The position numbers and the translations under genes are program-made. From assembly GCF_000017625.1 (NCBI RefSeq), contig NC_009712.1:992001-1056000 (forward strand): a stretch of DNA of 64,000 bases, read 5' to 3'. Below the pieces are notes generated by a model that did not search any database, was not told the origin of the DNA, and worked only from the letters and a program-made list of their open reading frames with translations. How positions within the stretch are numbered: the stretch's first letter is position 1; the number at the start of each line of letters is the position of its first letter. The stretch is from Methanoregula boonei 6A8 (GTDB taxonomy: Archaea > Halobacteriota > Methanomicrobia > Methanomicrobiales > Methanospirillaceae). Below are positions 18,105 to 35,872 of the stretch, piece by piece.

Positions 18105-20786
18105 ATGAGCGAAGAGCCTGAGGTAGTGACGCGGAAAAAAAGGATCGATCCCCAGCTGAGAGCTGCGGGATGGACCATTGCACCCTATCAGGCAGGCATG
18201 GATCTCTCCCGGTATTCCCGGTACGCCCTTGAGGAATTTCCAACCACTAATGGACCGGCCGATTATGCACTCTGCCTTGACGGGAAGATCGTTGCCGTAA
18301 TCGAGGCAAAGAAACTCACGCTCGGCCCGCAGAATGTTCTCACCCAGGCCGAGCGGTACGCTCAGGGGATCTCCGGCAGCCCGTTCAATTATTCCGGGTT
18401 CCGCGTCCCTTTTATCTATTCAACCAATGGCGAGATCATCTGGTACCACGATCTCCGCAACTCTTTGAACCGGTCCAGCACGGTTTCGCATTTTCATACC
18501 CCTGACGCACTTGCTGAACGGCTGAAGGATAAATTCGAGTCTTCATGCCAGCACCTTTTTGAATGGGAAAATGTGCACCCGATGATCCGCCCCTACCAGG
18601 CCGAAGCGAACGCGGCAATCGAGCAGGCCATCCGGGACCGGAAGCGCCAGATGCTTGTGGCGATGGCGACCGGGACTGGCAAGACCTACACGATGGTAAA
18701 CGAGACGTTCCGGCTGATGGAATCCGGTGTGGCCAAGAGGATCCTGTTTCTTGTGGATCGCCGGGCTCTTGCTGCTCAGGCAGTCAAGGCGTTTGCGTCC
18801 TTTGAAGCACGGCCGGGGCTGAAGTTCGACAAATCGTACGAGGTCTACAGCCAGAGGTTTTTCCGGGAGGATTTTGAGGAGGAAGAGAAGTTCGATCCCA
18901 AAGTACTTCCCTCGAATTATCTTCTTGAGCCAAAACCCGGTCTTGCATTTGTTTATGTCTGCACGATCCAGCGGATGACGATCAATCTCTTCGGGCGTAA
19001 TGCGGTTTTTGGTTCCAGCGATGAACCGATCGATGAGGATGCCGAGCAGATGGATATCCCGATCCATGCCTTTGATCTCATTATTGCTGACGAGTGCCAC
19101 CGGGGATATACCGCTGCGGAACAATCGGTGTGGCGTAAAACGCTCGATCATTTCGATGCGATCAAGATCGGCCTGACGGCAACACCGGCGGCTCATACAA
19201 TGGCATATTTCCGGGAGATTGTGTACAAGTATGATTATGCCCGGGCTGTGCGGGAAGGATTCCTTGTCGATTACGATGCAGTTGCGCTTGATTCGAACGT
19301 GCGGATGAACGGGATCTTCCTGCAGGCCGGCGAGCAGGTCGGGGTGATCGATGCATCATCGGGTGCCCAATCGTTCGACAACATGGAGGACGAGCGGCAG
19401 TTTGATACAACTGAAGTCGAGCGTTCGATTACCTCGCCGGATTCCAACCGGAAGATCCTTTCCGAGATCCGGAAGTACGCAGAAGAGCACGAGCAGCGGT
19501 TCGGAAGGTTCCCGAAAATCCTGATCTTTGCCGTGAATGACCTGTCGCATACCTCTCATGCAGACCAGCTGGTGGATATTGCCCGGGACGTGTTCGGGAA
19601 AGGTGATTCGTTTGTCCAGAAGATCACAGGCAAGGTTGACCGGCCTCTCCAGCATATCCGCGAGTTCAGGAACCGGCCAATGCCTGCCGTTGTGGTGACG
19701 GTGGACATGCTCTCAACCGGTGTCGATATCCCGGACCTGGAGTTCATTGTTTTCCTGCGGCCGGTGAAATCCCGTATCCTCTTCGAGCAGATGCTTGGCC
19801 GGGGAACACGCAGGGGCGAGCGATGCCCGGATAAATCCCACTTTGTTGTCTTCGATTGTTTTGGCGGGACGCTGCTTGATTATTTCCGGCAGGCAACCGG
19901 GATCACCGCTGAGCCTCCCGAGAAGGAGACACGATCGATCGTGCAGGTCATCAAGGATGTCTGGGACAACCGGGACCGGGACTATAATATCCGGGTACTG
20001 GTCCGGAGACTCCAGCGGATCGACAAAGAGATGAGCGGACATGCCCGCGACCTGTTCGCTGCATATGTTCCGCTGGGCGACCTGAAACGCTATGCAAGCG
20101 ATCTTACCCATGCCCTCGGGCAGGATTTCACCGGAACGATGACCCTTCTCCGGAACCCGGCATGCCAGGACCTGCTGCTTCACTATCCCCGGCCCGAGCG
20201 CTCGCTGCTGGTTGCGTACGAGAATGTGGATACAGTCAGTTCCCGGTATTTGATCCGGGACTCAGCGGGACACGAATACAAGCCGGAGGATTATCTCACA
20301 GCGTTCTCAACTTTTGTTAAGGAAAACCCGGAACATATCGAGGCAATCCGGATCCTGCTGGACCGGCCAAAAGACTGGGGAACGGACGCACTCTCCGAGT
20401 TAAAGCAGAAACTTGCGGCCACCCGGTACCGGTTCACGGTCGAAAACCTCCAGATGGCACACAAGGTGCGGTACAACAAGGCGCTCGTGGATATCATCTC
20501 GATGGTAAAACACGCCGCCCGCGAGGAGGAGCCGCTCTGTACTGCAGAGCAGCGGATCCACCGGGTCTTCGACAAGATGTCCCTTGCCACCTCATTGACT
20601 CCCGAGCAGCAGCAGTGGCTCGATAAAATCCGTGAACATTTAATTGCGAACCTCTCAATCAGTAAGGACGACTTTGATAGCATCCCGATCTTTGCGAATG
20701 TCGGCGGGTGGGGCAAAGCGAACCGGGTCTTTGACGGGCAGCTGCCCGACCTGATCCGGCAGTGGAATGAGGCTATTGCAGCATGA
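18105..20786 (+). CDS. hsdR: type I restriction enzyme, R subunit
   Basis: The 893-residue protein has the N-terminal nuclease motif of HsdR (Asp53, then IEAKK with Glu67 and Lys69, and QAERYA downstream), a superfamily II motor with Walker A ATGTGKT at 188-194, a DECH box (IIADECHRG, about residue 330), TATPA as motif III, and motif VI QMLGRGTRRGE. The C-terminal part resembles the EcoEI-type R subunit that docks on HsdM-HsdS. It cuts DNA lacking host methylation after ATP-driven translocation. Its stop overlaps the hsdM start by four bases (ATGA). All catalytic residues appear present. Confidence 0.95.
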   Translation: MSEEPEVVTRKKRIDPQLRAAGWTIAPYQAGMDLSRYSRYALEEFPTTNGPADYALCLDGKIVAVIEAKKLTLGPQNVLTQAERYAQGISGSPFNYSGFRVPFIYSTNGEIIWYHDLRNSLNRSSTVSHFHTPDALAERLKDKFESSCQHLFEWENVHPMIRPYQAEANAAIEQAIRDRKRQMLVAMATGTGKTYTMVNETFRLMESGVAKRILFLVDRRALAAQAVKAFASFEARPGLKFDKSYEVYSQRFFREDFEEEEKFDPKVLPSNYLLEPKPGLAFVYVCTIQRMTINLFGRNAVFGSSDEPIDEDAEQMDIPIHAFDLIIADECHRGYTAAEQSVWRKTLDHFDAIKIGLTATPAAHTMAYFREIVYKYDYARAVREGFLVDYDAVALDSNVRMNGIFLQAGEQVGVIDASSGAQSFDNMEDERQFDTTEVERSITSPDSNRKILSEIRKYAEEHEQRFGRFPKILIFAVNDLSHTSHADQLVDIARDVFGKGDSFVQKITGKVDRPLQHIREFRNRPMPAVVVTVDMLSTGVDIPDLEFIVFLRPVKSRILFEQMLGRGTRRGERCPDKSHFVVFDCFGGTLLDYFRQATGITAEPPEKETRSIVQVIKDVWDNRDRDYNIRVLVRRLQRIDKEMSGHARDLFAAYVPLGDLKRYASDLTHALGQDFTGTMTLLRNPACQDLLLHYPRPERSLLVAYENVDTVSSRYLIRDSAGHEYKPEDYLTAFSTFVKENPEHIEAIRILLDRPKDWGTDALSELKQKLAATRYRFTVENLQMAHKVRYNKALVDIISMVKHAAREEEPLCTAEQRIHRVFDKMSLATSLTPEQQQWLDKIREHLIANLSISKDDFDSIPIFANVGGWGKANRVFDGQLPDLIRQWNEAIAA

Positions 20787-22216
20787 GTGACGTTGTCCAA
20801 AAACTGTGGGGGTTCTGCCACACCCTGCGGCATGACGGTATCGATTACGGGGATTATATCGAGCAGATCACGTATCTCCTGTTCATCAAAATGGCCGATG
20901 AGCGGGGCGTGAAACTTCCCGAAGGCTGCGACTGGAAAACCCTCATGGAGAAGTCCGGGACCAACCTCTCCGATCATTACGTGGACGTACTACGGACGCT
21001 CGGGCAGCAGCCCGGTCTTCTTGGCGATATCTTTGCCGGTGCTCTTTCGCGGTTCACCAACCCGGTGAACTTAAAGAAACTGATCGGTCTGATCGATGAG
21101 ACCGCATGGACCGAACTCAACGTTGACGTGAAGGCCGAAGCGTTCGAGGGGCTTCTTGAAAAGGCGGCGAGCGAGGGAAAGAAGGGTGCCGGCCAGTACT
21201 TTACGCCGCGTATCCTGATCCAGTCGATTGTCCGGTGCATGAAACCCGATCCCCGGAAGAAAGCGGATTTTGCGATCTGCGATCCCGCGTGCGGGACCGG
21301 CGGGTTCCTTGTCTGCTCGTACGAATGGCTGCTGGAACAGACCAAAGGCGGAGCACTGGATCGCGATGTGGCGAAACGTGTCCTGAAGGATACGTACTTC
21401 GGGCAGGAACTTGTTGCCCGGCCGCGCCGCTTAGCGCTGATGAACCTCTTTCTCCACAATGTCGAACCCGTGATCAAATACGGGGACTCGATCTACGAGA
21501 ACCCGGACAACCGGCGCTTTGATGTGGTGCTGACCAACCCGCCATTTGGGACAAAAGGCGCAAACCAGGCACCGGACCGGGATGACTTCGTGGTCTCCAC
21601 GTCCAACAAGCAGCTCAATTTCGTGCAGCACGTGATGACGATCTTAAAACCCGGCGGACGGGCGGCGGTCGTGGTGCCGGACAACGTGCTCTTTGCTGAC
21701 CAGGCCGGCGAAGTGTTCAAGGTACTGACCGAGGACTGCAACCTCCACACGATCCTAAGGCTCCCGAACGGCACCTTCACCCCCTATTCCCCGGGCACGA
21801 AAACAAACGTCCTCTTCTTCACAAAGGGTTTCCCCACCGAAACGATCTGGGTGTATGACGACCGGACGAACGTGCCGGGGATCACGAAGAAGGACCGGCC
21901 CTTAACACCCGAATATTTCGCGGAGTTCGAAAAAGTATACGGCGCCGACCCGAACGGCGGCTCGAAGCGCAATGCAGCTGACTCGAAAGAAGATCGCTGG
22001 CACTCGTTCCACCTCAGCGAGGTCAAGGAGCGGAACTACAAGATCGATTCGCTCAAGTGGCTCAAGGACGATTCGCTCGATGATGCAGACGACCTGCCGG
22101 AGCCGGAGGAACTCGCCACCGATGCGATTGCGGAGCTGCGGGGAGCGATGGACGAGCTCCAGAATGTTGTGGTGCTGCTGGAGAACGGTAATGGAAATGG
22201 AGCGAATGAACAGTGA
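20783..22216 (+). CDS. hsdM: type I restriction-modification DNA methyltransferase, M subunit
   Basis: The 477-residue protein has an N-terminal HsdM helical domain (ITYLLFIKMADERG, residues about 29-42), the S-adenosylmethionine motif DPACGTGGF (167-175) and the N6-adenine methyltransferase motif NPPFG (252-256). GQYFTPR at 138-144 is also typical. It methylates adenine in the sequence chosen by HsdS and forms the M2S core. It overlaps hsdR upstream and hsdS downstream by four bases each, so the three subunits are translationally coupled. Its GC-rich composition matches the host genome, unlike the recognition parts of hsdS. Confidence 0.96.
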   Translation: MSDVVQKLWGFCHTLRHDGIDYGDYIEQITYLLFIKMADERGVKLPEGCDWKTLMEKSGTNLSDHYVDVLRTLGQQPGLLGDIFAGALSRFTNPVNLKKLIGLIDETAWTELNVDVKAEAFEGLLEKAASEGKKGAGQYFTPRILIQSIVRCMKPDPRKKADFAICDPACGTGGFLVCSYEWLLEQTKGGALDRDVAKRVLKDTYFGQELVARPRRLALMNLFLHNVEPVIKYGDSIYENPDNRRFDVVLTNPPFGTKGANQAPDRDDFVVSTSNKQLNFVQHVMTILKPGGRAAVVVPDNVLFADQAGEVFKVLTEDCNLHTILRLPNGTFTPYSPGTKTNVLFFTKGFPTETIWVYDDRTNVPGITKKDRPLTPEYFAEFEKVYGADPNGGSKRNAADSKEDRWHSFHLSEVKERNYKIDSLKWLKDDSLDDADDLPEPEELATDAIAELRGAMDELQNVVVLLENGNGNGANEQ

Positions 22217-23586
22217 GCCTGACAGTTCCCGTTGCTGAAATTATCAATAGTTCAACAAATCCTCTACTTGCGATTGATCCCTCTTGGGAGCGCGTGCCTC
22301 TTGGAAAAATCGCAAAAGTACTGAATGGTTTTGCATTTAAATCAGAATTGTTTAACGATAAAAAAGGTACGCCTCTTATCCGCATTCGGGATATCGGAAA
22401 TAACAAAACAGAGTGTTATTATGACGGTGTATTCGATGAAGCATATGTCATACATCCGGGGGATTTGCTCGTAGGGATGGATGGGGATTTCAATTGTTCT
22501 ACATGGCGAGGTCCAAAAGCCTTACTCAATCAACGGGTTTGTAAAATTGAAGTTAATATTGAACAATACAACAGAAAATTTTTAGAATATGTTTTACCGG
22601 GATATCTGAAAGCTATCAATGAAAATACCTCTTCGCAAACAGTGAAACATCTATCGTCACGATCAATCTCTGAAATACTTCTTCCAAATCCTCCACTAAC
22701 CGAACAGCAGCGCATCGTCGCCCGTGTCGAAGCCCTCCTGTCGCACGTCAACGCCGCCCGCGAACGGCTGAGCCGGGTGCCGTTGATCATGAAAAAGTTC
22801 CGGCAGGCAGTGCTCGCGGCGGCGTGTAGTGGAGGGTTGACGGAGGGGTGGAGAAAGGAGAATCCGGATATTGAAGAAGCAAATAAATTAGTCAAACGTC
22901 TAGAATCTATAAGAAAGCAATTTAAAATCCGCGAAATTTCTTCAATAGATAATTTAGAATTATCTGACCTGCCAGATTCTTGGACTTGGATTCGTTTAGC
23001 TAATATTGCTATCGTAATGGATCCTGATCATAAAATGCCAAAAAGTTCAGACGGTGGAATAATCTTTATTTCTCCAAAAGACTTCAAAGAAAATTATCAA
23101 ATTGATATGACAAAAACAAAACGGATATCCGATGAAGAGTTTTTAAGATTATCTAAAAAATTCGTCCCTAGACCGTTGGATATTTTATATTCAAGAATTG
23201 GCGCAGATTTGGGGAAAGCAAGAAAAGCACCCCAAGATATCAAATTTCATATATCATATAGTTTGGCGGTAATCCGACAACTGGGTGAAATGGAAAATTC
23301 TGATTATTTGTTTTGGTTATTAAATTCAATGTTTATTAGGAATCAGGCATTCGAGAATGTGCGAAGCATCGGCGTTCCTGATTTGGGATTAAGGGATATT
23401 GATAATTTTATAATCCCCCTCCCACCCCTTGCCGAGCAGTACGAGATCGTCCGGCGTGTCGGTTTACTGTTTGAGCGTGCGGATGCCATTGATCGCGAGG
23501 TTGAAGCGGCGACCCGGCGGTGCGAGCGGTTGACGCAGGCGGTACTGGGGAAGGCGTTCAGAGGAGAATTAACGAGGAATTTATGA
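22213..23586 (+). CDS. hsdS: type I restriction-modification specificity subunit
   Basis: The 457-residue protein has two target recognition domains (about residues 15-160 and 245-400), each followed by a helical spacer with the usual LTEQQRIVARVEALL and LAEQYEIVRRVGLLF beginnings. Each recognition domain should read one half of a bipartite DNA site. Base composition is a striking mosaic: recognition domains (22240-22690 and 22850-23400) are AT-rich with many A-ending codons, while the conserved spacers (22700-22850 and 23420-23580) are GC-rich like hsdM. That pattern suggests exchange of recognition domains by recombination in the conserved parts. It overlaps hsdM and the next gene by four bases each. 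Confidence 0.94.
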   Translation: MSLTVPVAEIINSSTNPLLAIDPSWERVPLGKIAKVLNGFAFKSELFNDKKGTPLIRIRDIGNNKTECYYDGVFDEAYVIHPGDLLVGMDGDFNCSTWRGPKALLNQRVCKIEVNIEQYNRKFLEYVLPGYLKAINENTSSQTVKHLSSRSISEILLPNPPLTEQQRIVARVEALLSHVNAARERLSRVPLIMKKFRQAVLAAACSGGLTEGWRKENPDIEEANKLVKRLESIRKQFKIREISSIDNLELSDLPDSWTWIRLANIAIVMDPDHKMPKSSDGGIIFISPKDFKENYQIDMTKTKRISDEEFLRLSKKFVPRPLDILYSRIGADLGKARKAPQDIKFHISYSLAVIRQLGEMENSDYLFWLLNSMFIRNQAFENVRSIGVPDLGLRDIDNFIIPLPPLAEQYEIVRRVGLLFERADAIDREVEAATRRCERLTQAVLGKAFRGELTRNL

Positions 23587-27035: not shown

Positions 27036-28058
27036 TCAGATTTTCAGTAATCGCTCCGCGTTTCCGTGCGCTATCTTATGCTTGTCCGCGTCGCTCACGG
27101 GCAAATGATCCAGGAAGGTGCGGGCTTCCGCCATCGAGCCGTAGGGATAATCGGCGGAGAACATTATCCGGTCGGCCCCGACCTGGAGGTAGAGATCCAG
27201 GAAGGTCGGGGTAAAGTTGAACCCGCTGAAGGAATAGTACACATTTTCCTGGAGATACTCCGCAACGGTTTTGTCCAGCTTTGTTACCTCCTTTGGTAAT
27301 CCCCGGTTAAGCCGGGGCATCATGAACGGGAGGGATTCTCCCAGGTGACCAATCACGATCCGGAGATCCGGGTACTGGTCGAACGCCCCGCCAAGGATCA
27401 GGCGGAGGACGTGGACCGCGGTCTCGATATGCCAGCCCCACCCGTGCCGGGACAGGCCAAAGGTTACCTCCGGTGAAAAACCTGCGTAATAGGCTTCAGT
27501 TACCGGCGCGGGCGGCGGTGTCGGGTGGATGCAGAGCGGGACCCCGAGCATTTCGGCGCGTTCAAGGATCGGCCAGAAGAATTTGTCATCGAGATAACGA
27601 CCGTGCGTATGCCCGTTGATCCATCCTCCCACAAAGCCATGCTCTTTAACCATGCGTTCCAGTTCGTCCGCGGCAGCATCCGGCGCGGCGGTCGGCAGCG
27701 TGGCAAACCCGGCAAACCGGTCCGGGTGCCGGAGCACTGCCGCCGCAAGATAGTCATTTGCTTCACGCGCCAGGTCTTTTGCCGCAGCAGCGTCGAGCTG
27801 TTGCACCGAAGGATCGGTCAGCGACAATACCTGCAGATCGATACCCGCGGCATCCATCCAGCCGATCCGCTCCTCCCCAAGGTCCAGCAGGTCGTCGACA
27901 ATATTCCTGCGGCCCACATTCCCCGGCAACACGGGCTGTCCGCGGAGTTTTTTCCCCGGGCCGTTCAGAAATGCCGGGCTTGCATAGTGCTCTTCAAGCG
28001 TGATCGTCCTCAACGGGCCGGGATCACGGGAACGGGGTGCAGCTGCCTTCTTTGCCAT
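27036..28058 (-). CDS. amidohydrolase-family protein (Amidohydrolase_2, ACMSD-like)
   Basis: The 340-residue TIM-barrel protein has the motifs of the amidohydrolase_2 family that includes ACMSD and aromatic-acid decarboxylases: ITLEEHYASPAF near the N-terminus (Glu and His as first metal ligands), CIHPTPP for the next His, VIGHLGESLPF, and the late catalytic Asp in FSADYPYGS. Such enzymes decarboxylate or hydrolyse aromatic acids using one metal. The exact substrate is unknown. An ATG at 28058 fits a nearly leaderless transcript; a GTG six codons upstream (28076) is the alternative. The gene lies close to the four-component methyltransferase operon, but a shared role is only a guess. Confidence 0.82.
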   Translation of the reverse strand: MAKKAAAPRSRDPGPLRTITLEEHYASPAFLNGPGKKLRGQPVLPGNVGRRNIVDDLLDLGEERIGWMDAAGIDLQVLSLTDPSVQQLDAAAAKDLAREANDYLAAAVLRHPDRFAGFATLPTAAPDAAADELERMVKEHGFVGGWINGHTHGRYLDDKFFWPILERAEMLGVPLCIHPTPPPAPVTEAYYAGFSPEVTFGLSRHGWGWHIETAVHVLRLILGGAFDQYPDLRIVIGHLGESLPFMMPRLNRGLPKEVTKLDKTVAEYLQENVYYSFSGFNFTPTFLDLYLQVGADRIMFSADYPYGSMAEARTFLDHLPVSDADKHKIAHGNAERLLKI

Positions 28059-28140
28059 GAACCCGGTTCTTGGCACAGGACTAAAAATAGGTTCTCATAG
28101 ATCCATCCGGGTGTGCAGCCGGGATCGGCAAAACCTTCGG

Positions 28141-29061
28141 TCACACCCCGGAATCGAGCTGTGCCTGGATCTTTTCCGCAACAGGTTCTGATGCTGCATC
28201 GAGCGGAACAAGACGGATCTGATCCGCGGAAGTAACACCTATTCCTAACTCAGAGGCACGGGCGATCTGCTCCTGGGAGAAAATTGTTCCCTCGCTCACA
28301 TCGTGGGACGTGCCAAAGGAGCGGAGCAGTGCAACCCCGGTTGCATCGATGGCAACCCGGTCCCGCCCGCCGATAATTACGTTGGGGCGAATGAGTTTTC
28401 CTTTGTCCGGCCCGCCGGTTGCAAATCCCTCGGTCGCATCCATGAGCACGAGATCGGTGGAATAAAATGTGTTGATCTCGGCAATCATCGCCCGCTGGTG
28501 GGGCGAGGTGTGCAGTTCGCCCATGAAGTCGTAATCAAGGCCGGGGACCCGCTTTGCGACAAGGCCGACAGAATTTTTTAGCGACATCGTGAAATGTCCC
28601 CCGTACCGGTGGGTCTTGAGGCAGCAGGTTTGTATAACACGGTCTGCCCAGGTAAAGACATTGGCAATGAAAAAACCCCGTTGCCAGTGAAGCCCGGGCG
28701 CCTGGATCTCCTGCCAGCCGTTCCGTTCGATCTCGTCCAGCACAACAACAGAAAACCCGAGCTCCTGTGCAAGAGAGAATACGCCACGGTTTTCAAGCAC
28801 GGTCCTTGTCGCCCCCATCCCGCTGCGTTCAGCAAGCGTGAGATGTGCCGGCCCCTCGTTCAGGATGGAATCTGCAATCCCCCGCAGCATATCGATATGT
28901 GTCGAAGCAGGGAATGGGTCGTCACTGTTGAAATTTGCCTTGAGAGCCACGCCGGCTCCTGACAATACGGAGAGATCGAACTCCTCAAGGATTGCGTGAA
29001 GCCCGCCGATACGGTCAGTCGCATCCGCGATAAAAATGTCTGTCTGCCCTTGCCCGGTCAT
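28141..29061 (-). CDS. DUF362 domain protein
   Basis: The 306-residue protein matches the DUF362 pattern: VALKANFNSDDPFPASTH near residue 38, then LAERSGMGATRTVLE, a central CCLKTHRYGGHFTMSLKNSVGLV around 148-170, and LMDATEGFATGGPDKGK near 210 followed by VAIDATGVALLRSFG. DUF362 proteins are widespread in methanogens; many carry ferredoxin-type clusters, but I see no CxxCxxC motif here, so this is the bare domain. The reaction is unknown. It is 82 bases upstream of the amidohydrolase on the same strand, so they may be co-transcribed. Confidence 0.8.
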   Translation of the reverse strand: MTGQGQTDIFIADATDRIGGLHAILEEFDLSVLSGAGVALKANFNSDDPFPASTHIDMLRGIADSILNEGPAHLTLAERSGMGATRTVLENRGVFSLAQELGFSVVVLDEIERNGWQEIQAPGLHWQRGFFIANVFTWADRVIQTCCLKTHRYGGHFTMSLKNSVGLVAKRVPGLDYDFMGELHTSPHQRAMIAEINTFYSTDLVLMDATEGFATGGPDKGKLIRPNVIIGGRDRVAIDATGVALLRSFGTSHDVSEGTIFSQEQIARASELGIGVTSADQIRLVPLDAASEPVAEKIQAQLDSGV

Positions 29062-29216: not shown

Positions 29217-29303
29217 GTATCACTGATACTTTCCCATTGATATCACCAATTAGAGATACGTATCAGTGATATGTTTAAGTAGTTATCACTCCAAAGTGAT
29301 AAC
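29217..29303. promoter_or_regulatory. cluster of TATCAC palindromes upstream of the AbiE-like operon
   Basis: Four related palindromes crowd into 87 bases directly before the start codon at 29305: GTATCACTGATAC at 29217-29229 (perfect), TGATATCA at 29238-29245, GTATCAGTGATAT at 29260-29272, and perfect nine-base arms GTTATCACT (29282-29290) and AGTGATAAC (29295-29303) with a four-base spacer. The last one ends one base before the ATG, so bound protein would block transcription start or translation. AbiEi antitoxins are known to bind repeats at their own promoter, and the winged-helix part of the first gene product is the likely binder. Confidence 0.75.
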
Positions 29304-29304
29304 C

Positions 29305-30330
29305 ATGGAATTCCCCGAAATTCCAGAGACTGCCGAGGAGTATGTCAGGAAACAGTTAGGCATCCCGCCGGATTCAAGAGATCTGGAACCGGAGAAACTG
29401 GCCAATCTCTATGATGCCCTGAATGTTGTCCTTCCCCTGCGACCGGACCATATTATCCAGAATCAGGGTATAATCTATTTCGTCGAAATGAAAAAGGGTT
29501 CCGTGACCCTCGATACACTTGCACGGATGAATCTTAACCGGGATATCTGGCAGAAAAAACCCGGTCGTCCGGAGGTTCGGCTGGTTCTTGCTGCAAAAAC
29601 CATCAATAAACGGGAAGAAGAACTGGCCAGGGATCTCGATATCCAGATTATAAAACTCCCTTGGGCAATCAGCTCCCCCAAAGATCAGGAATACAAATCC
29701 TCCAATGTTCGTATCAGTTCCGATAAATCCTGGAGAATCATTACCCGCCTGCTTAAGGAAAAAAATACCTCCATCCGTCAATTGGCAATAAAAGAGAACG
29801 TATCGTACGGGTGGACGCACAAGGTTATCGAAATCCTCAGCGAACAAAACATCGTCCGTAAAGAGGGTGGCTACGTAACCATCGCGGATGTGAAAAATCT
29901 CCTGAATGGCGTTGCATGGGAGCGGCCCATGAAAAATTTACAGGAGGAAGAACTTTTTGTGAATTTTACCGGAGCCCACGTGGCCGCACAGGAAATAACC
30001 CGGGCACTCAAGGATCAAAAAATCCCCTTTGCTTTCACGAGTTATACCTCTGGAGGACTTTACACATCGTATGCATTCCGGCAGGATGTTATCTGTCTCT
30101 ATCTCGAAAAGGGAGCAATTGATCAGTTTAAGGAAAATTTTGGTACAACCCAGGAGAACAATGTCCGTGCCATAATTTACACTCCGGACCGGGATGTATT
30201 CACTCATACACAGGAAAAAGAATCCATTGTCATCACCTCCCCCTCCCAGACATTGCTCGATCTTGCGGGACTTGGGTACAGTGCAATGGACCTGACCATG
30301 GCGATGGTGGAGAGATATGCCGGTTTATGA
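29305..30330 (+). CDS. AbiEi-like antitoxin/regulator with nuclease-like N-terminal domain
   Basis: The 341-residue protein has three parts. Residues 1-125 look like a restriction-endonuclease-like fold: RPDHIIQ with Asp48, then IIYFVEMKKGS with Glu61 and Lys63. Residues about 140-205 form a winged helix (ITRLLKEKNTSIRQLAIKE and a wing with VRKEGGYVTI). Residues 215-341 resemble the AbiEi C-terminal domain (IPFAFTSYTSGGLYTSYAFR and a strand with ICLYLEKG). The ATG at 29305 begins directly after a palindrome, and a frame extension upstream crosses that operator. The gene overlaps the nucleotidyltransferase gene by 14 bases, the order of a type IV antitoxin-toxin pair. Confidence 0.72.
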   Translation: MEFPEIPETAEEYVRKQLGIPPDSRDLEPEKLANLYDALNVVLPLRPDHIIQNQGIIYFVEMKKGSVTLDTLARMNLNRDIWQKKPGRPEVRLVLAAKTINKREEELARDLDIQIIKLPWAISSPKDQEYKSSNVRISSDKSWRIITRLLKEKNTSIRQLAIKENVSYGWTHKVIEILSEQNIVRKEGGYVTIADVKNLLNGVAWERPMKNLQEEELFVNFTGAHVAAQEITRALKDQKIPFAFTSYTSGGLYTSYAFRQDVICLYLEKGAIDQFKENFGTTQENNVRAIIYTPDRDVFTHTQEKESIVITSPSQTLLDLAGLGYSAMDLTMAMVERYAGL

Positions 30331-31066
30331 TCCTGGTCCTGAGATCATTGAGACATCTGCTGCGGAACTCCGGAAAATTGTATCCTGGGCTAACGCGTCC
30401 GGTCCGGGTCCCGAATTACAGAATATTGTGCTGATCGGGGGTTGGGCTGTAGATGCATATAATCCGTATTTTGGATCGGTGGATATTGATCTCGTTACCG
30501 ATGACAGGATCCGTGAATCGTTAATCGGGTACCTGACAACCCGCGAAGGATACCATCCACGAGTCCATTACCCGGTTAATACCGTCGAGAAAGTCACACC
30601 CTATGGCGAGATTATTCTCGATTTCATTCCCCGGGAAACACCCTATCCGTATGAAGGGCACCGTGAGATACCGTATACGATGGAAATTCTCACGGGCAAC
30701 ACCGTGTTCCGGAATGTGCGGGGAGGAGCGGGAATTTTGGTCCCGAACAGATCGGTTCTGCTGCTGTTGAAAATGAAAGCCGCATGGGACAGAACGTACA
30801 GGATTCTCCATCAGACATCCGCAGATGTCCGGTGGGAAGGAATGAAAAAAATTAAGGATTGTGCCGATATCCTTGCGCTGATCGATCCCCGTCGCGGGGG
30901 ACGCGAAATCGATTTGGAAATTCTCGGGCAGGAGATCTCACGGGCCGGGTTTCTCAGGGAAGTTATCGTACAAATACCTGGTTTGGACGCAGTCAGAGAT
31001 CGATACCGGCGGATGGACCGACAGGAAATTCGTCGGGTATGTGAGGACTTTATCTCCTTGTTGTAG
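30317..31066 (+). CDS. AbiEii-like nucleotidyltransferase, toxin candidate
   Basis: The 249-residue protein has a DNA-polymerase-beta-like nucleotidyltransferase core: VLIGGWAVDAYNPYFGSVDIDLV gives the GG motif (41-42) and the S-x-D-x-D pattern with Asp56 and Asp58, and IILDFIPRE gives the third acidic residue, Asp102. The C-terminal half is helical. AbiEii/MenT-type toxins transfer nucleotides to targets such as tRNA acceptor ends. The start lies 14 bases inside the end of the AbiEi-like gene. The upstream palindromes probably control both genes. The family assignment rests on motif order and gene pairing; other MNT-type toxins share the core. Confidence 0.75.
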   Translation: MPVYDPGPEIIETSAAELRKIVSWANASGPGPELQNIVLIGGWAVDAYNPYFGSVDIDLVTDDRIRESLIGYLTTREGYHPRVHYPVNTVEKVTPYGEIILDFIPRETPYPYEGHREIPYTMEILTGNTVFRNVRGGAGILVPNRSVLLLLKMKAAWDRTYRILHQTSADVRWEGMKKIKDCADILALIDPRRGGREIDLEILGQEISRAGFLREVIVQIPGLDAVRDRYRRMDRQEIRRVCEDFISLL

Positions 31067-31147: not shown

Positions 31148-32404
31148 CTAATACGTCCCGTATTTCTTCACGGCCTCTAACACAGCCCTGACATTCTCCG
31201 GCCGGGCTTCACCAGATATGCCACCGTCCGCACCCGGGTAGATCATCATGCCGCCCTGCTTGCAGTCGTCAAGCATTGACTTCATGTAATCGTCCACCTT
31301 CTGTGGTGTGCCTCCGATGAGAAGCGAGTTAGGCGGGCCAGATACGAGAACCACATGGTCATCGAGCACCTCCCGGACTTTCCTCGGGTCGGTCTTGTCA
31401 AAGACCGCAACGATCTTTCCTTTCGGGAGATCGAGGAGGGTTTCCAGGTGCGCATCGTGCCGGCCCTCAAAGAGGATGTACGGCGTCTGGCCCATGTTGA
31501 TCACTTCGAGAAGCACCTTCTTTAACGACGGCCAGTAGAACTCGTTGTACTGCTTCGGATTGAGGTACTCGGTTAAGTGCAGCGGGAAGAAGCACTCGAC
31601 CACGTTTGTCCCAAGGGCCTTTTTGACCTCGGGCGGGACGGCACCGCTCAGCCGGGCCGATTCGATCAAGGGCTCCACGAGCGCATCCGCGGACTGCTTC
31701 ACGAGATCGGGCTTGCGGTAGATGTCGAGCACGACATTTTTTATGTCCCGCAAAAAGTCGCTCACGAAGTCGAGCGGGGCATAACTCCACGAGGTCGGGA
31801 ACGTCGGGATGCCCATCTGTCCGAGCTGCCCGATAACCGCCATCTGCGCCGCCCCGGATTTTGAGAGTTCCGCGCCGTAGGCAAGCATCGCAGCGTTTGC
31901 CTCAGGAGATCCCAAATCAGCAAGTGCCGGGCACATCCGCGGCAGCGCAACCCGGTTCAAAAAGCCGGACGGGTCGGCGATGAGCTGGCCATACTCCTCC
32001 GGTTTCATGATCTCCTTTCCCACGAACTGCGGGTGGGAGGAAGCGTCGAGTTCCACACCGGGCCATTTCGTGTACACGTCTTTTAAGATCTGGTGGAACG
32101 GGCCGGTCATGAACCGCGCCCCTGATGCAAGCGGCGGGTTGTTCTTCATGAACGTGAGTACCATGTTCATCCCCTCAAGGCCGTTTAAGACCAGCAGCGA
32201 ATCAAAGTCAAAGTCTTTGGCAGTCTTCATCGCTGCATCGTGGTTCTTCCCGTAATCGAAGAATATCTCCTGCGCCGTGTACCCCGCGTACCGCCCGTGG
32301 AAGAGATCCACCATCGCGGTGACCGGCACCCGGTCCGGCTCTTTACCCGCAATAACGGTCTCAAGCCGGGCAAGCTTCTCCCGGTAAATCTGTGCGCCGT
32401 CCAT
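31148..32404 (-). CDS. UroD-family methyltransferase, MtoB-like methyltransferase I candidate
   Basis: The 418-residue protein belongs to the uroporphyrinogen-decarboxylase-like methyltransferase family (COG0407): VIAGKEPDRVPVTAMVDLF at the N-terminus, a TIM barrel with a middle VIGQLGQMGIPTF, and a late ILFEGRHDAHLETLLDL. In MtaA/MtbA-type enzymes the late loop carries an H-x-C zinc pair; here it reads RHDAHLE without Cys, so it is not a standard methyl-corrinoid:CoM enzyme. It is six bases downstream of the corrinoid protein gene, and the operon also holds MtrH-like and RACE genes. By analogy with Mto systems it may take a methyl group from a methoxylated or other methylated substrate. Confidence 0.8.
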   Translation of the reverse strand: MDGAQIYREKLARLETVIAGKEPDRVPVTAMVDLFHGRYAGYTAQEIFFDYGKNHDAAMKTAKDFDFDSLLVLNGLEGMNMVLTFMKNNPPLASGARFMTGPFHQILKDVYTKWPGVELDASSHPQFVGKEIMKPEEYGQLIADPSGFLNRVALPRMCPALADLGSPEANAAMLAYGAELSKSGAAQMAVIGQLGQMGIPTFPTSWSYAPLDFVSDFLRDIKNVVLDIYRKPDLVKQSADALVEPLIESARLSGAVPPEVKKALGTNVVECFFPLHLTEYLNPKQYNEFYWPSLKKVLLEVINMGQTPYILFEGRHDAHLETLLDLPKGKIVAVFDKTDPRKVREVLDDHVVLVSGPPNSLLIGGTPQKVDDYMKSMLDDCKQGGMMIYPGADGGISGEARPENVRAVLEAVKKYGTY

Positions 32405-32410
32405 CGCTCT

Positions 32411-33046
32411 TCACGCCCCGGCAAGCTGCTTGATCTTCCTCACACCCACGGCCGCATCATCCGCCCATTCGTCTGCGCCGGTGTGCTCTTTTGCTTCCTC
32501 ATCGCACCGCCCGCCGCCGATAATGATCTTTACCTGCGAACGGAGCCCGGCGGCTTTTATCGCATCGATGGTCTTTTTCATCGACTCGATCGCCTCGGTG
32601 AGAAGGCCGCTCATGCTCACGACTTTCGGGTGATGGTCCTGGATCGCCTTGATAAATACGGCGGGCGGCTGGTCAACGCCGATATCGATAATCTCAAAGC
32701 CCTCGGCCTCGAGGAGCGCCGAGACAATGTTCTTCCCGATATCGTGCACGTCCCCTTCCACAGTACCGACAAGGATTGTGCCCTTGCTTGCCATCTTGTG
32801 CTCGCCAAAGACCGGCTTTAAGAGGGCCATTGCCTGCGAGAGGATCTCGCCGGCCATCATGAGATCGGAGACAAAGTACCGCCCCTCCTCGAAGCGTTTG
32901 CCCACGATATCGGTAGCCTTCCTGATATCCTCAAGGATCAGGAGCGGGGCTTCCTTAGCAGCAATCCTTTGGTTCAGGAGGTCGATACAGGTGGTCTCAT
33001 CGAGATCGACAAGAGCGTTGACAAAAGCATCTCGTGTGTCTGCCAT
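32411..33046 (-). CDS. methyltransferase corrinoid protein (MtbC/MtoC-like)
   Basis: The 211-residue protein has the two domains of methyl-carrying corrinoid proteins: an N-terminal four-helix cap (about 1-85, with RFEEGRYFVSDLMMAGEIL) and a Rossmann-like B12-binding domain with GDVHDIGKN (about 98-106; His is the lower cobalt ligand), then SMSGLLT and the late IIIGGGRC. It holds a cobamide whose Co(I) state accepts a methyl group from methyltransferase I and passes it on. It lies between the RACE gene, 100 bases upstream, and the UroD-family gene, six bases downstream. Confidence 0.93.
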   Translation of the reverse strand: MADTRDAFVNALVDLDETTCIDLLNQRIAAKEAPLLILEDIRKATDIVGKRFEEGRYFVSDLMMAGEILSQAMALLKPVFGEHKMASKGTILVGTVEGDVHDIGKNIVSALLEAEGFEIIDIGVDQPPAVFIKAIQDHHPKVVSMSGLLTEAIESMKKTIDAIKAAGLRSQVKIIIGGGRCDEEAKEHTGADEWADDAAVGVRKIKQLAGA

Positions 33047-33146
33047 GGTACACCCCTAATAATGCGGGTATTTCACAAAGCAATACTATGCCGGGGGGTT
33101 ATAATAGGTTTCCACCCGTGACAGTCCCCGGCCGGGAATATTTTTT

Positions 33147-34985
33147 TTAAGAGCGGCGCTGTGCCGCTTCAGGAGAGATCGGGATGGACCGGAGGTATTC
33201 CCGGTTAAAGGACTTCTCCACCGAGAGCTCCACGTACTGAACCTTTGTAAGCACCGACCGGATCGCTTCGCGCTCGTGCACGGAGAGGAGCGCAAGCTGA
33301 GATCCGCCTACCGCAGTCTCCCCGGCAAACACGACACGGTCCGGGGGCACCTGCGGGAGGAGTTCAAGAGCCATCGCATTCCCGATATTTATGTGCGTGC
33401 CAAAGGAGCCGGCAAGGTACACCCGGTCGAGATTTTTCGGATCGATCCCGTACTTCTCCGCAAGGATCGTCCAGCCGGCCCGAAGCGAGCCTTTCGCAAG
33501 CAAAAATTCGTTGATGTCCTTTTCCGTGACCGTAATCTCCCGGCCGGATTCTGTCTCCTCTTTTGGCGCTACAATAAATTTCGGGACTCCGTCGGTTACG
33601 ATCCGGGGATTGGCAAGGTTGGCAAACTTCCCGTTCTTTGTGATGATCCCGGCCGAGAAGAGCGAGGCCACGAGATCGATGATCCCGCTCCCGCAGATCC
33701 CCTTTGGCTTCCCGTTCCCGATCGTGGTGTACGAGACCTTCCCGTCCTCGATCTTCACAGACTCTATGGCACCGCCCACCGCTTTCATGCCCGAACTGAT
33801 CTGCGCCCCTTCAAATGAGGGCCCCGAGGGGGCAGAGCAGACCACGATCTTATCGGAGTTCCCAAGCATCAGCTCCGAGTTTGTCCCGATGTCGATCACA
33901 AGGCTGCATTCCTGCCGCTCGTAAATTTTCGTGAGCATCAGGTCCGCTACTGCATCCGAGCCCACGTAGCCGGCAATAAGCGGGAGCGAGGTAACCCTTC
34001 CCTCGGGGTTGATTGCAAGCCCGAGCTCCTTTGCCGGGTAACTGACCGGCGCAGAATGACCGGGGAGGAAGGGGGAGACGCCGATGTACTTCGGGGTGAT
34101 GCCCAAAAAGAGGTGGTGCATCACGGTATTCCCGTCAAAGACGATCTCGTAGATCCGGTCCTTGGAAATCTCTGTTGCCCCGCACATTTTGGCAATAAGC
34201 GTGTTGACCGTCTCCACCACGAGGTACCGGAGCCGGTACAGGTTCCCGTTGTCTTTGGCCGCAAAGGTGATCCTTGAAACCACGTCCTCGCCGTACATGA
34301 TCTGCGGGTTCTCGGCATGCTCCGCTGCAAGGGTTTTCCCGGTGGCAAGGTCAACAAGGTGGCAGATGATCTTGGATGAGCCGATGTCGATCGCAACGCC
34401 ATACTGCTCTGTGGTTGTGTCCCCGGCCTCCACGGTAAGGAGCCGGTCGTTCCAGATCACGGCGGTTACATCCCAGCCGGCAGAGCGCAGCGTATCGGGA
34501 AGCACAGACAGGACCGGGAGCGGGATCCCGGAGGGTACGAACGGCAGGGCAGAGACCAGCCGCTCAAGGTCCGGGCGGGTGTCCTCTAAGGTTGGCGGGA
34601 AAAGGTGACACCGGACCTTTTGTACCGCGGGAGCGAGCGCAACGTTTCCTTCGAGAGCGGTGCCGGAAATCTCCCGGGCCGCAGTCCTGCTTTCGGGAAG
34701 GACATACACGGTAGCTTTGCCGGAGAGCACCCGGGCCTGGCAGGCCAGCCGCAGTCCCCCGGCAAGCTCGGCAGCAGTGAGCTGTTTTGCCTCCTTCTGC
34801 GTGGGGGGTGCAATCGTGCCGTAGGATTTGGTGATCTGCACCCGGCACTTCCCGCAGATCCCCGAGCCGCCGCACTCGCTCCGGAGCGTGATGCCGGCGC
34901 CCCGTGAGAGTTCGAGGATGGACTGAGGGGGACCTTCAACCGTCTTCCCGTCGGGTTCGAACGTAATGGTGACCGTATCTGCCAT
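33147..34985 (-). CDS. RACE-type reductive activator of corrinoid proteins (2Fe-2S, DUF4445)
   Basis: The 612-residue protein starts with a [2Fe-2S] domain: Cys38, Cys44 and Cys47 in SECGGSGICGKCRV and Cys82 in LRLACQ. A linker and a large actin-like ATPase-type domain follow (GVAIDIGSSKIICHLVDL near 208 and LVIDIGTNSELMLGN near 367), which is the DUF4445/COG3894 architecture of RACE proteins. These use ATP and electrons to reduce accidentally oxidised Co(II) corrinoid back to Co(I). Methanol and methylamine systems of Methanosarcina use RamA (4Fe-4S) for this; a RACE protein is typical of demethylase operons of acetogens and Mto operons. It is encoded 14 bases after the MtrH-like gene. Confidence 0.92.
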   Translation of the reverse strand: MADTVTITFEPDGKTVEGPPQSILELSRGAGITLRSECGGSGICGKCRVQITKSYGTIAPPTQKEAKQLTAAELAGGLRLACQARVLSGKATVYVLPESRTAAREISGTALEGNVALAPAVQKVRCHLFPPTLEDTRPDLERLVSALPFVPSGIPLPVLSVLPDTLRSAGWDVTAVIWNDRLLTVEAGDTTTEQYGVAIDIGSSKIICHLVDLATGKTLAAEHAENPQIMYGEDVVSRITFAAKDNGNLYRLRYLVVETVNTLIAKMCGATEISKDRIYEIVFDGNTVMHHLFLGITPKYIGVSPFLPGHSAPVSYPAKELGLAINPEGRVTSLPLIAGYVGSDAVADLMLTKIYERQECSLVIDIGTNSELMLGNSDKIVVCSAPSGPSFEGAQISSGMKAVGGAIESVKIEDGKVSYTTIGNGKPKGICGSGIIDLVASLFSAGIITKNGKFANLANPRIVTDGVPKFIVAPKEETESGREITVTEKDINEFLLAKGSLRAGWTILAEKYGIDPKNLDRVYLAGSFGTHINIGNAMALELLPQVPPDRVVFAGETAVGGSQLALLSVHEREAIRSVLTKVQYVELSVEKSFNREYLRSIPISPEAAQRRS

Positions 34986-34999
34986 GCGAATCCCCGGAC

Positions 35000-35872
35000 C
35001 TAGAGCGTAACGTATTCCTTTGCCCGGTACGCGTACCGGTACGACGTGTCAATGGTAAAAACCGCAGGAAAGACGTACGCGGAATCCTCCACCGGCCCAT
35101 ACAGCAGGAAGTCTGCGCCAAGGATGACCGGCATCAGGTTTGCAACCACATCGGCCGAGCGCACGGCATCTTTCCCGAAAAGGTTTTTCACCCCCGACCA
35201 CGTGGAGATCGCATTATGAGCCGCAGACCCGCAGGGGTACCCGAACCGGTTTTTTATCTCCATCGCGGCTTTCCCCGAAGGGGTGAGACTGGGGACGTCC
35301 ATCACGAACGTATCAACAAGGATATTGGAAACGCCAATCCCTTCGAGCCGTGGCGCAAGATCGGCCACCACCGCCACCCGGTCGGCGCTGCTCGTGATCT
35401 TTTTTGTGTACGCAAGGAGGATCACGGACCGTGTCCCGTTCTTTTTGAGCGCATCAAACTCCGGCTCTTTTGTCTCGATCGAGACCGAGTTGTAGATGAT
35501 CCGGTCCGAGAGCCCCGCTTCCTGTGCATACTCTGCCGCGGCAATCTTCACGTCAACGCCGGGTGAATCGATTAAAAACGGCCTGTCGCTTGCGCCCGCG
35601 ACAAAATCAATGTACTTCTTGATAGCGTCGGGTGTCGAGCCCACAATATCGAGGAGCGCCGGGCAGCCGGTCTTGTCCGAGAGCTCGGCCTGCTGCTTGA
35701 TCAGGGCATCGGCCGCGTCCTTATCGAAGATGCCGGCCCGCTCGTCGCTTACGATCTTATGCCGGGAATAAAAGATGCTCCCGATAAGTAATGTCGGTGT
35801 CTCGCCGGGTTGCCCGCCGATCTTCACCCCGCCTATTTGGTATTTTTTCTGCACGGCCTTAAAGAAAAACAT
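35000..35872 (-). CDS. MtrH-like pterin methyltransferase, MtoA-like methyltransferase II candidate
   Basis: The 290-residue protein is a TIM barrel of the MtrH family: FFKAVQKKYQIGGVKIGGQPG at the start, then TLLIGSIFYSRHKIV, a middle FLIDSPGVDVKIAAAEYAQE, and near the end FGYPCGSAAHNAISTW. MtrH moves methyl groups between tetrahydromethanopterin and a corrinoid. True mtrH lies in the eight-gene mtr operon, whereas here it heads an operon with corrinoid protein, RACE and UroD-family genes, as in Mto systems, where this subunit loads the methyl group on the pterin. I start it at the ATG at 35872; the frame runs 78 codons further upstream into Arg-rich, clearly non-coding sequence. Confidence 0.85.
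   Translation of the reverse strand: MFFFKAVQKKYQIGGVKIGGQPGETPTLLIGSIFYSRHKIVSDERAGIFDKDAADALIKQQAELSDKTGCPALLDIVGSTPDAIKKYIDFVAGASDRPFLIDSPGVDVKIAAAEYAQEAGLSDRIIYNSVSIETKEPEFDALKKNGTRSVILLAYTKKITSSADRVAVVADLAPRLEGIGVSNILVDTFVMDVPSLTPSGKAAMEIKNRFGYPCGSAAHNAISTWSGVKNLFGKDAVRSADVVANLMPVILGADFLLYGPVEDSAYVFPAVFTIDTSYRYAYRAKEYVTL

Follow-up and report, generated by a model that had tools for sequence, protein, structure and literature searches.

A predicted Mto-type O-demethylase operon in the methanogen Methanoregula boonei 6A8

Introduction

In environmental genomics the Methanomicrobiales are commonly scored as purely hydrogenotrophic, for example in work on Stordalen Mire (PMC10805028) and on marine sediment (PMC11840676). 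Four adjacent genes of Methanoregula boonei 6A8 raise the question of whether a member of this order can also draw methyl groups from methoxylated compounds. The genes lie in the window analyzed here, a 64-kb stretch that corresponds to positions 992001-1056000 of the complete 2,542,943-base genome. A preliminary description of this DNA had assigned them to the same set of protein families as the archaeal Mto system and had treated their presence in a CO2-reducing order as a surprise.

Two archaeal Mto systems serve as points of comparison. In Methermicoccus the reactions of MtoB, MtoC, MtoD and MtoA have been demonstrated, and the methyl group goes to a pterin (H4F as H4MPT analogue), not to CoM (Kurth et al. 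2021, PMC8630106). In Archaeoglobus fulgidus, induction of the mto cluster AF_0006-AF_0013 has been shown when cells grow on 2-methoxyphenol (PMC8359953).

Results

Four intact genes encode all the Mto components

Four intact open reading frames were found on the minus strand, from 35872 to 31148, encoding in this order an MtrH-like protein, a RACo-type activator, a corrinoid protein and a UroD-family protein. In transcription order, consecutive genes lie 14, 100 and 6 bases apart. The preliminary description had claimed a four-part operon with this order and extent, and the intact frames with their Pfam support confirm it.

The first gene (35000..35872) is mtoA-like and encodes a predicted methyl-corrinoid:H4MPT methyltransferase of the MtrH family (290 aa; PF02007, E 6e-97). 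Note that the E-value was scored on a TTG-extended reading frame, while the 290-aa protein starts at the ATG at 35872. The second, mtoD-like gene (33147..34985) encodes a 612-aa protein, the predicted RACo-type reductive activator of the corrinoid protein (PF00111, PF17650, PF17651 and PF14574), in which the Fer2, RACo linker, middle and C-terminal domains each score above cut-off. Its N-terminal [2Fe-2S] domain carries a cysteine cluster, read in the sequence as CGGSGICGKC plus one later Cys, as had been proposed for a RACE-type activator. The third, mtoC-like gene (32411..33046) encodes a corrinoid protein of 211 aa with B12-binding and B12-binding_2 domains (PF02310, PF02607); it reads VEGDVHDIGKN and so contains the GDVHDIGKN motif reported before. 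Finally, the mtoB-like gene (31148..32404) encodes a predicted UroD-family substrate:corrinoid methyltransferase of 418 aa (PF01208, 57 bits versus a cut-off of 23.9). Thus, Mto components A, B, C and D are all encoded side by side, and the E-values, together with a gene order that is conserved in other genomes, exclude chance.

The four proteins are orthologous to A. fulgidus MtoABCD

For these comparisons we used a reference genome that we take to be that of A. fulgidus. Its gene order matches the published one (PMC8359953). In the trees of all four proteins, the nearest relatives were the Methanomicrobiales orthologues, followed (with Jordarchaeum where present) by the Archaeoglobaceae Mto proteins. 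All four components cluster with their A. fulgidus MtoABCD counterparts (AF_0009, 0007, 0006 and 0010, respectively), one clade per gene and with 53-68% identity, so the proposed Mto family set stands.

The MtrH-like protein, 53% identical to the AF_0009 MtoA, groups in the MtrH tree with this and the other Archaeoglobaceae MtoA proteins, distinct from the mtr-operon MtrH of its own genome; PDB 8z9u also groups with the Archaeoglobaceae MtoA. The RACo-type protein (53% identity to the A. fulgidus MtoD, AF_0010) falls in a clade with the Archaeoglobaceae MtoD, far from the two CODH/ACS-linked RACo paralogues of the genome. The corrinoid protein is 68% identical to the AF_0006 MtoC and shares its clade.

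The two clusters differ in layout. The A. fulgidus order is MtoC-MtoB-MFS-MtoA-MtoD, followed by one more gene each for a corrinoid protein, a UroD protein and an MFS transporter, whereas the M. boonei order is A-D-C-B, with a single B and without a transporter. The hosts differ as well, since M. boonei is a methanogen and A. fulgidus a sulfate reducer. With the Methermicoccus shengliensis MtoABCD (PMC8630106), which we compared at the level of protein families, the M. boonei operon shares the component families and the proposed acceptor, H4MPT; M. shengliensis differs in its methylotrophic growth, in having both MtoB1 and MtoB2, and in its transporters.

The UroD-family protein belongs with MtoB

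The preliminary description had noted a UroD-family methyltransferase that lacks the HxC motif. This is correct: the MtaA-type His-x-Cys zinc site reads L-F-E at residues 311-313. Both this replacement and the score against NF004889 (34 bits versus a cut-off of 244) place the protein outside the MtaA/MtbA methylcobamide:CoM methyltransferases, and with 28.9 bits versus an equivalog cut-off of 302.95 it is not a HemE either. Its scores against the curated models for HemE, for MtaA/CmuA and for methylcobalamin:CoM methyltransferase all lie far below cut-off. The phylogeny, which had been proposed as a check, gave the same answer, grouping the protein with A. fulgidus MtoB and apart from HemE and the MtaA/MtbA-type proteins, in a clade (support 100/100) with Methanomicrobiales, Archaeoglobaceae (AF_0007 MtoB) and Jordarchaeum proteins. 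Its sequence keeps 104 of the 108 residues that are invariant in the rest of this clade, similar to other members.

An AlphaFold model of the protein (pLDDT 94.6) has a confident UroD-type fold. Among solved structures it is matched best by UroD and by 4ay7/4ay8, a methyltransferase from Methanosarcina mazei (TM ~0.59); Foldseek returned generic UroD-fold matches only, and the CdmB entry was absent among the matches listed. We also looked for a zinc motif of the acetogen O-demethylases in the form E-x14-E-x20-H, to which we give no weight; the motif in this form is absent from the UroD protein and from the relatives checked.

UroD relatives differ in substrate within the superfamily, as illustrated by CdmB of Acetobacterium dehalogenans, which takes chloromethane (PMC13222342). 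Another possibility, which we consider unlikely, could be that the M. boonei operon has the same architecture but accepts a different methyl donor, such as a haloalkane (as in Cdm) or a small methylated compound, with the methyl group still ending on H4MPT. CdmB (PDB 9rui) is the sole solved relative of the UroD protein found by sequence; it is likewise a UroD-fold methyltransferase without the zinc HxC motif, from a three-component system with an activator (PMC13222342). Moreover, there is no transporter gene adjacent to the operon, and a small hydrophobic substrate would need none. Against this, the two proteins are just 34% identical, while the nearest characterized relative, the A. fulgidus MtoB AF_0007, reaches 62%; the position of Glu313 is occupied by Gln in CdmB and in its near relative L069_8; and CdmB, which is chloromethane-specific and has H4F as acceptor, falls in a separate clade. 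When CdmB was forced to group with the Methanomicrobiales UroD proteins, the topology was rejected (AU p = 5.9e-5). The UroD protein thus lies outside the CdmB clade of the Cdm chloromethane system, and a CdmB-like function is unlikely.

The operon is a complete, dedicated set

The operon UroD protein is the only one in the genome, which therefore encodes neither MtaA nor HemE. The initial concern that the MtrH-like protein might be the sole MtrH does not apply: a second one is encoded at positions 538347-539333 of the genome, among mtr-like genes, and groups in the tree with a solved MtrH. Two further RACo genes are present, both clustered with CdhD-family corrinoid subunits and one of them also with CdhC (CODH/ACS clusters), and therefore the operon RACo is free to serve the operon corrinoid protein. 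One additional B12-binding_2 protein in the genome has a different layout. The four genes are, then, a complete and dedicated set.

These data also bear on the idea that the operon carries out an anabolic or housekeeping corrinoid methyl transfer, for instance for CODH/ACS or methionine synthesis, and handles no external substrate. The corrinoid protein does match methionine-synthase cobalamin domains as well. Yet the CODH/ACS clusters possess their own RACo genes, the best relatives of the four proteins are the catabolic Mto proteins, and the patchy distribution described below misfits a housekeeping role, all of which makes this idea hardly credible.

No MFS transporter gene was found inside the operon or beside it. 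The genome has 16 MFS matches elsewhere, none of them for a protein like the one MFS of the gene array in genome G013 (see below) with which they were compared. We treat the MFS as accessory because the other Methanomicrobiales operons also lack one, with the exception of G013, which has two.

Distribution in the Methanomicrobiales

Including M. boonei, 9 of the 150 sampled Methanomicrobiales genomes carry the UroD gene. Among them are Methanoplanus limicola (G031) and a genome (G043) that we take to be Methanolacinia petrolearia; further carriers, from a separate scan, are Methanogenium marinum, M. cariaci and one Methanofollis MAG. G043 has a matching operon with the same order and a UroD protein 69% identical to that of M. 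boonei; under the same assumption it represents another genus and family, and its operon is followed by a gene resembling PLP-type decarboxylases and by an amino-acid permease gene. The MtrH-RACo-CP-UroD order is kept in the well-assembled carriers, across Methanolacinia, Methanoplanus and Methanogenium.

Within Methanoregula, 3 of 39 genomes carry the UroD gene, whole or in part: it is intact in M. boonei alone, and 2 of the 38 others have fragments. The gene is rare in this genus and therefore dispensable. Methanoregula sp. STF2_46 (L077 1-2357) carries an MtoB C-terminus that runs off the contig edge and, downstream of it, another, degraded MtoB copy with a broken frame.

The M. boonei copy branches beside all other Methanomicrobiales copies in three of the trees (MtrH, RACo and corrinoid protein). 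This agrees with a long-standing presence in the order followed by many losses, although transfer within the Methanomicrobiales could conceivably account for it too. An ancestral operon of this kind might also survive in M. boonei as a decaying or silent remnant that is out of use. Such a fate would suit the low counts of carriers, the contig-end piece and degraded second copy in the Methanoregula assembly just described and the missing transporter beside the M. boonei operon. We nevertheless find it quite improbable, as all four frames are intact, the clade-invariant UroD residues are almost all kept, and both gene order and close spacing are preserved.

Further clusters were seen in other archaea. 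In a Methanomicrobiales genome (G013:C3:286000-325999; L025, L026), one array combines 6 or 7 MtoB-type genes, several of them accompanied by a corrinoid-protein gene of their own, with two MFS transporters and a single MtrH/RACo pair; possibly this methanogen uses several methoxy substrates. Jordarchaeum (L040, L041) has an Mto cluster whose MtoB is 60% identical to the M. boonei UroD protein; in L040 the order is Archaeoglobus-like, with a gene resembling the AF_0008 MFS between MtoB and MtoA.

Neighborhood of the operon

An amidohydrolase-2 protein with a LEEH motif near its start is encoded at 27036-28076 (minus strand), 3 kb downstream of the operon. Decarboxylases of gamma-resorcylate, 5-carboxyvanillate and 2,3-dihydroxybenzoate are among its best solved relatives, and a search of the other 149 sampled Methanomicrobiales gave no match at E 1e-20. 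A DUF362 protein gene (28141-29061, minus strand) adjoins it on the same strand after a 64-base gap. We rejected both genes as parts of the operon: two opposite-strand genes lie between, and neither is conserved beside the operon in relatives.

These two intervening genes (29266-31066, plus strand) overlap each other and have no Pfam match; they look like an AbiEi/AbiEii-type pair. Close by, at 18105-23586, is an apparent type I restriction-modification system, and the surroundings of the operon may thus be rich in defense genes.

Discussion

Our results suggest that the four genes, orthologous to A. fulgidus mtoABCD, probably form a working archaeal Mto-type O-demethylase operon, through which methyl groups reach H4MPT and, from there, methane. 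The individual catalytic steps, the substrate and the use of the operon by the living cell are what we infer. The UroD protein (MtoB) would take the methyl group from a methyl-O compound, most probably a methoxylated aromatic, and load it onto MtoC, the corrinoid protein, in its Co(I) state. From the resulting methyl-Co(III), the MtrH-like protein (MtoA) would pass the group on to tetrahydromethanopterin. With ATP and low-potential electrons, the RACo-type protein (MtoD) would re-reduce any corrinoid that drops to Co(II). Methyl-H4MPT would enter the Na+-pumping Mtr complex and, through Mcr, yield methane, or be partially oxidized to CO2. We propose the route to H4MPT on grounds of homology, since the reactions of MtoA and MtoB have been shown for Methermicoccus (PMC8630106). 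Orthology to MtoA points to H4MPT rather than CoM as the acceptor, and the absence of MtaA/MtbA agrees with this.

Going by nearness, a link between the amidohydrolase and methoxybenzoate use is tempting. A peat-dwelling CO2-reducing methanogen could in that way derive some of its methane from methoxylated aromatic acids, with Mto taking the methyl group and the 27036-28076 enzyme the carboxyl of the product, a scenario that we regard as doubtful.

The presence of the operon in a CO2-reducing order was confirmed, but the surprise attached to it had been overstated, as putative methoxydotrophy genes had already been named in Methanolacinia petrolearia and Methanothermobacter tenebrarum (Kurth et al. 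2021, PMC8630106). In the literature searched we found no earlier report of an Mto system in Methanoregula. The M. boonei operon therefore joins a known system, already reported in one other species of the Methanomicrobiales.

Entry at methyl-H4MPT would retain the energy-conserving Mtr step, unlike the use of methanol or methylamines. With an intact Mto operon present in a Methanoregula that can be cultivated, methyl uptake from lignin-type aromatics by some Methanomicrobiales can be tested directly and, if true, the assignment of methane sources in peat would change.
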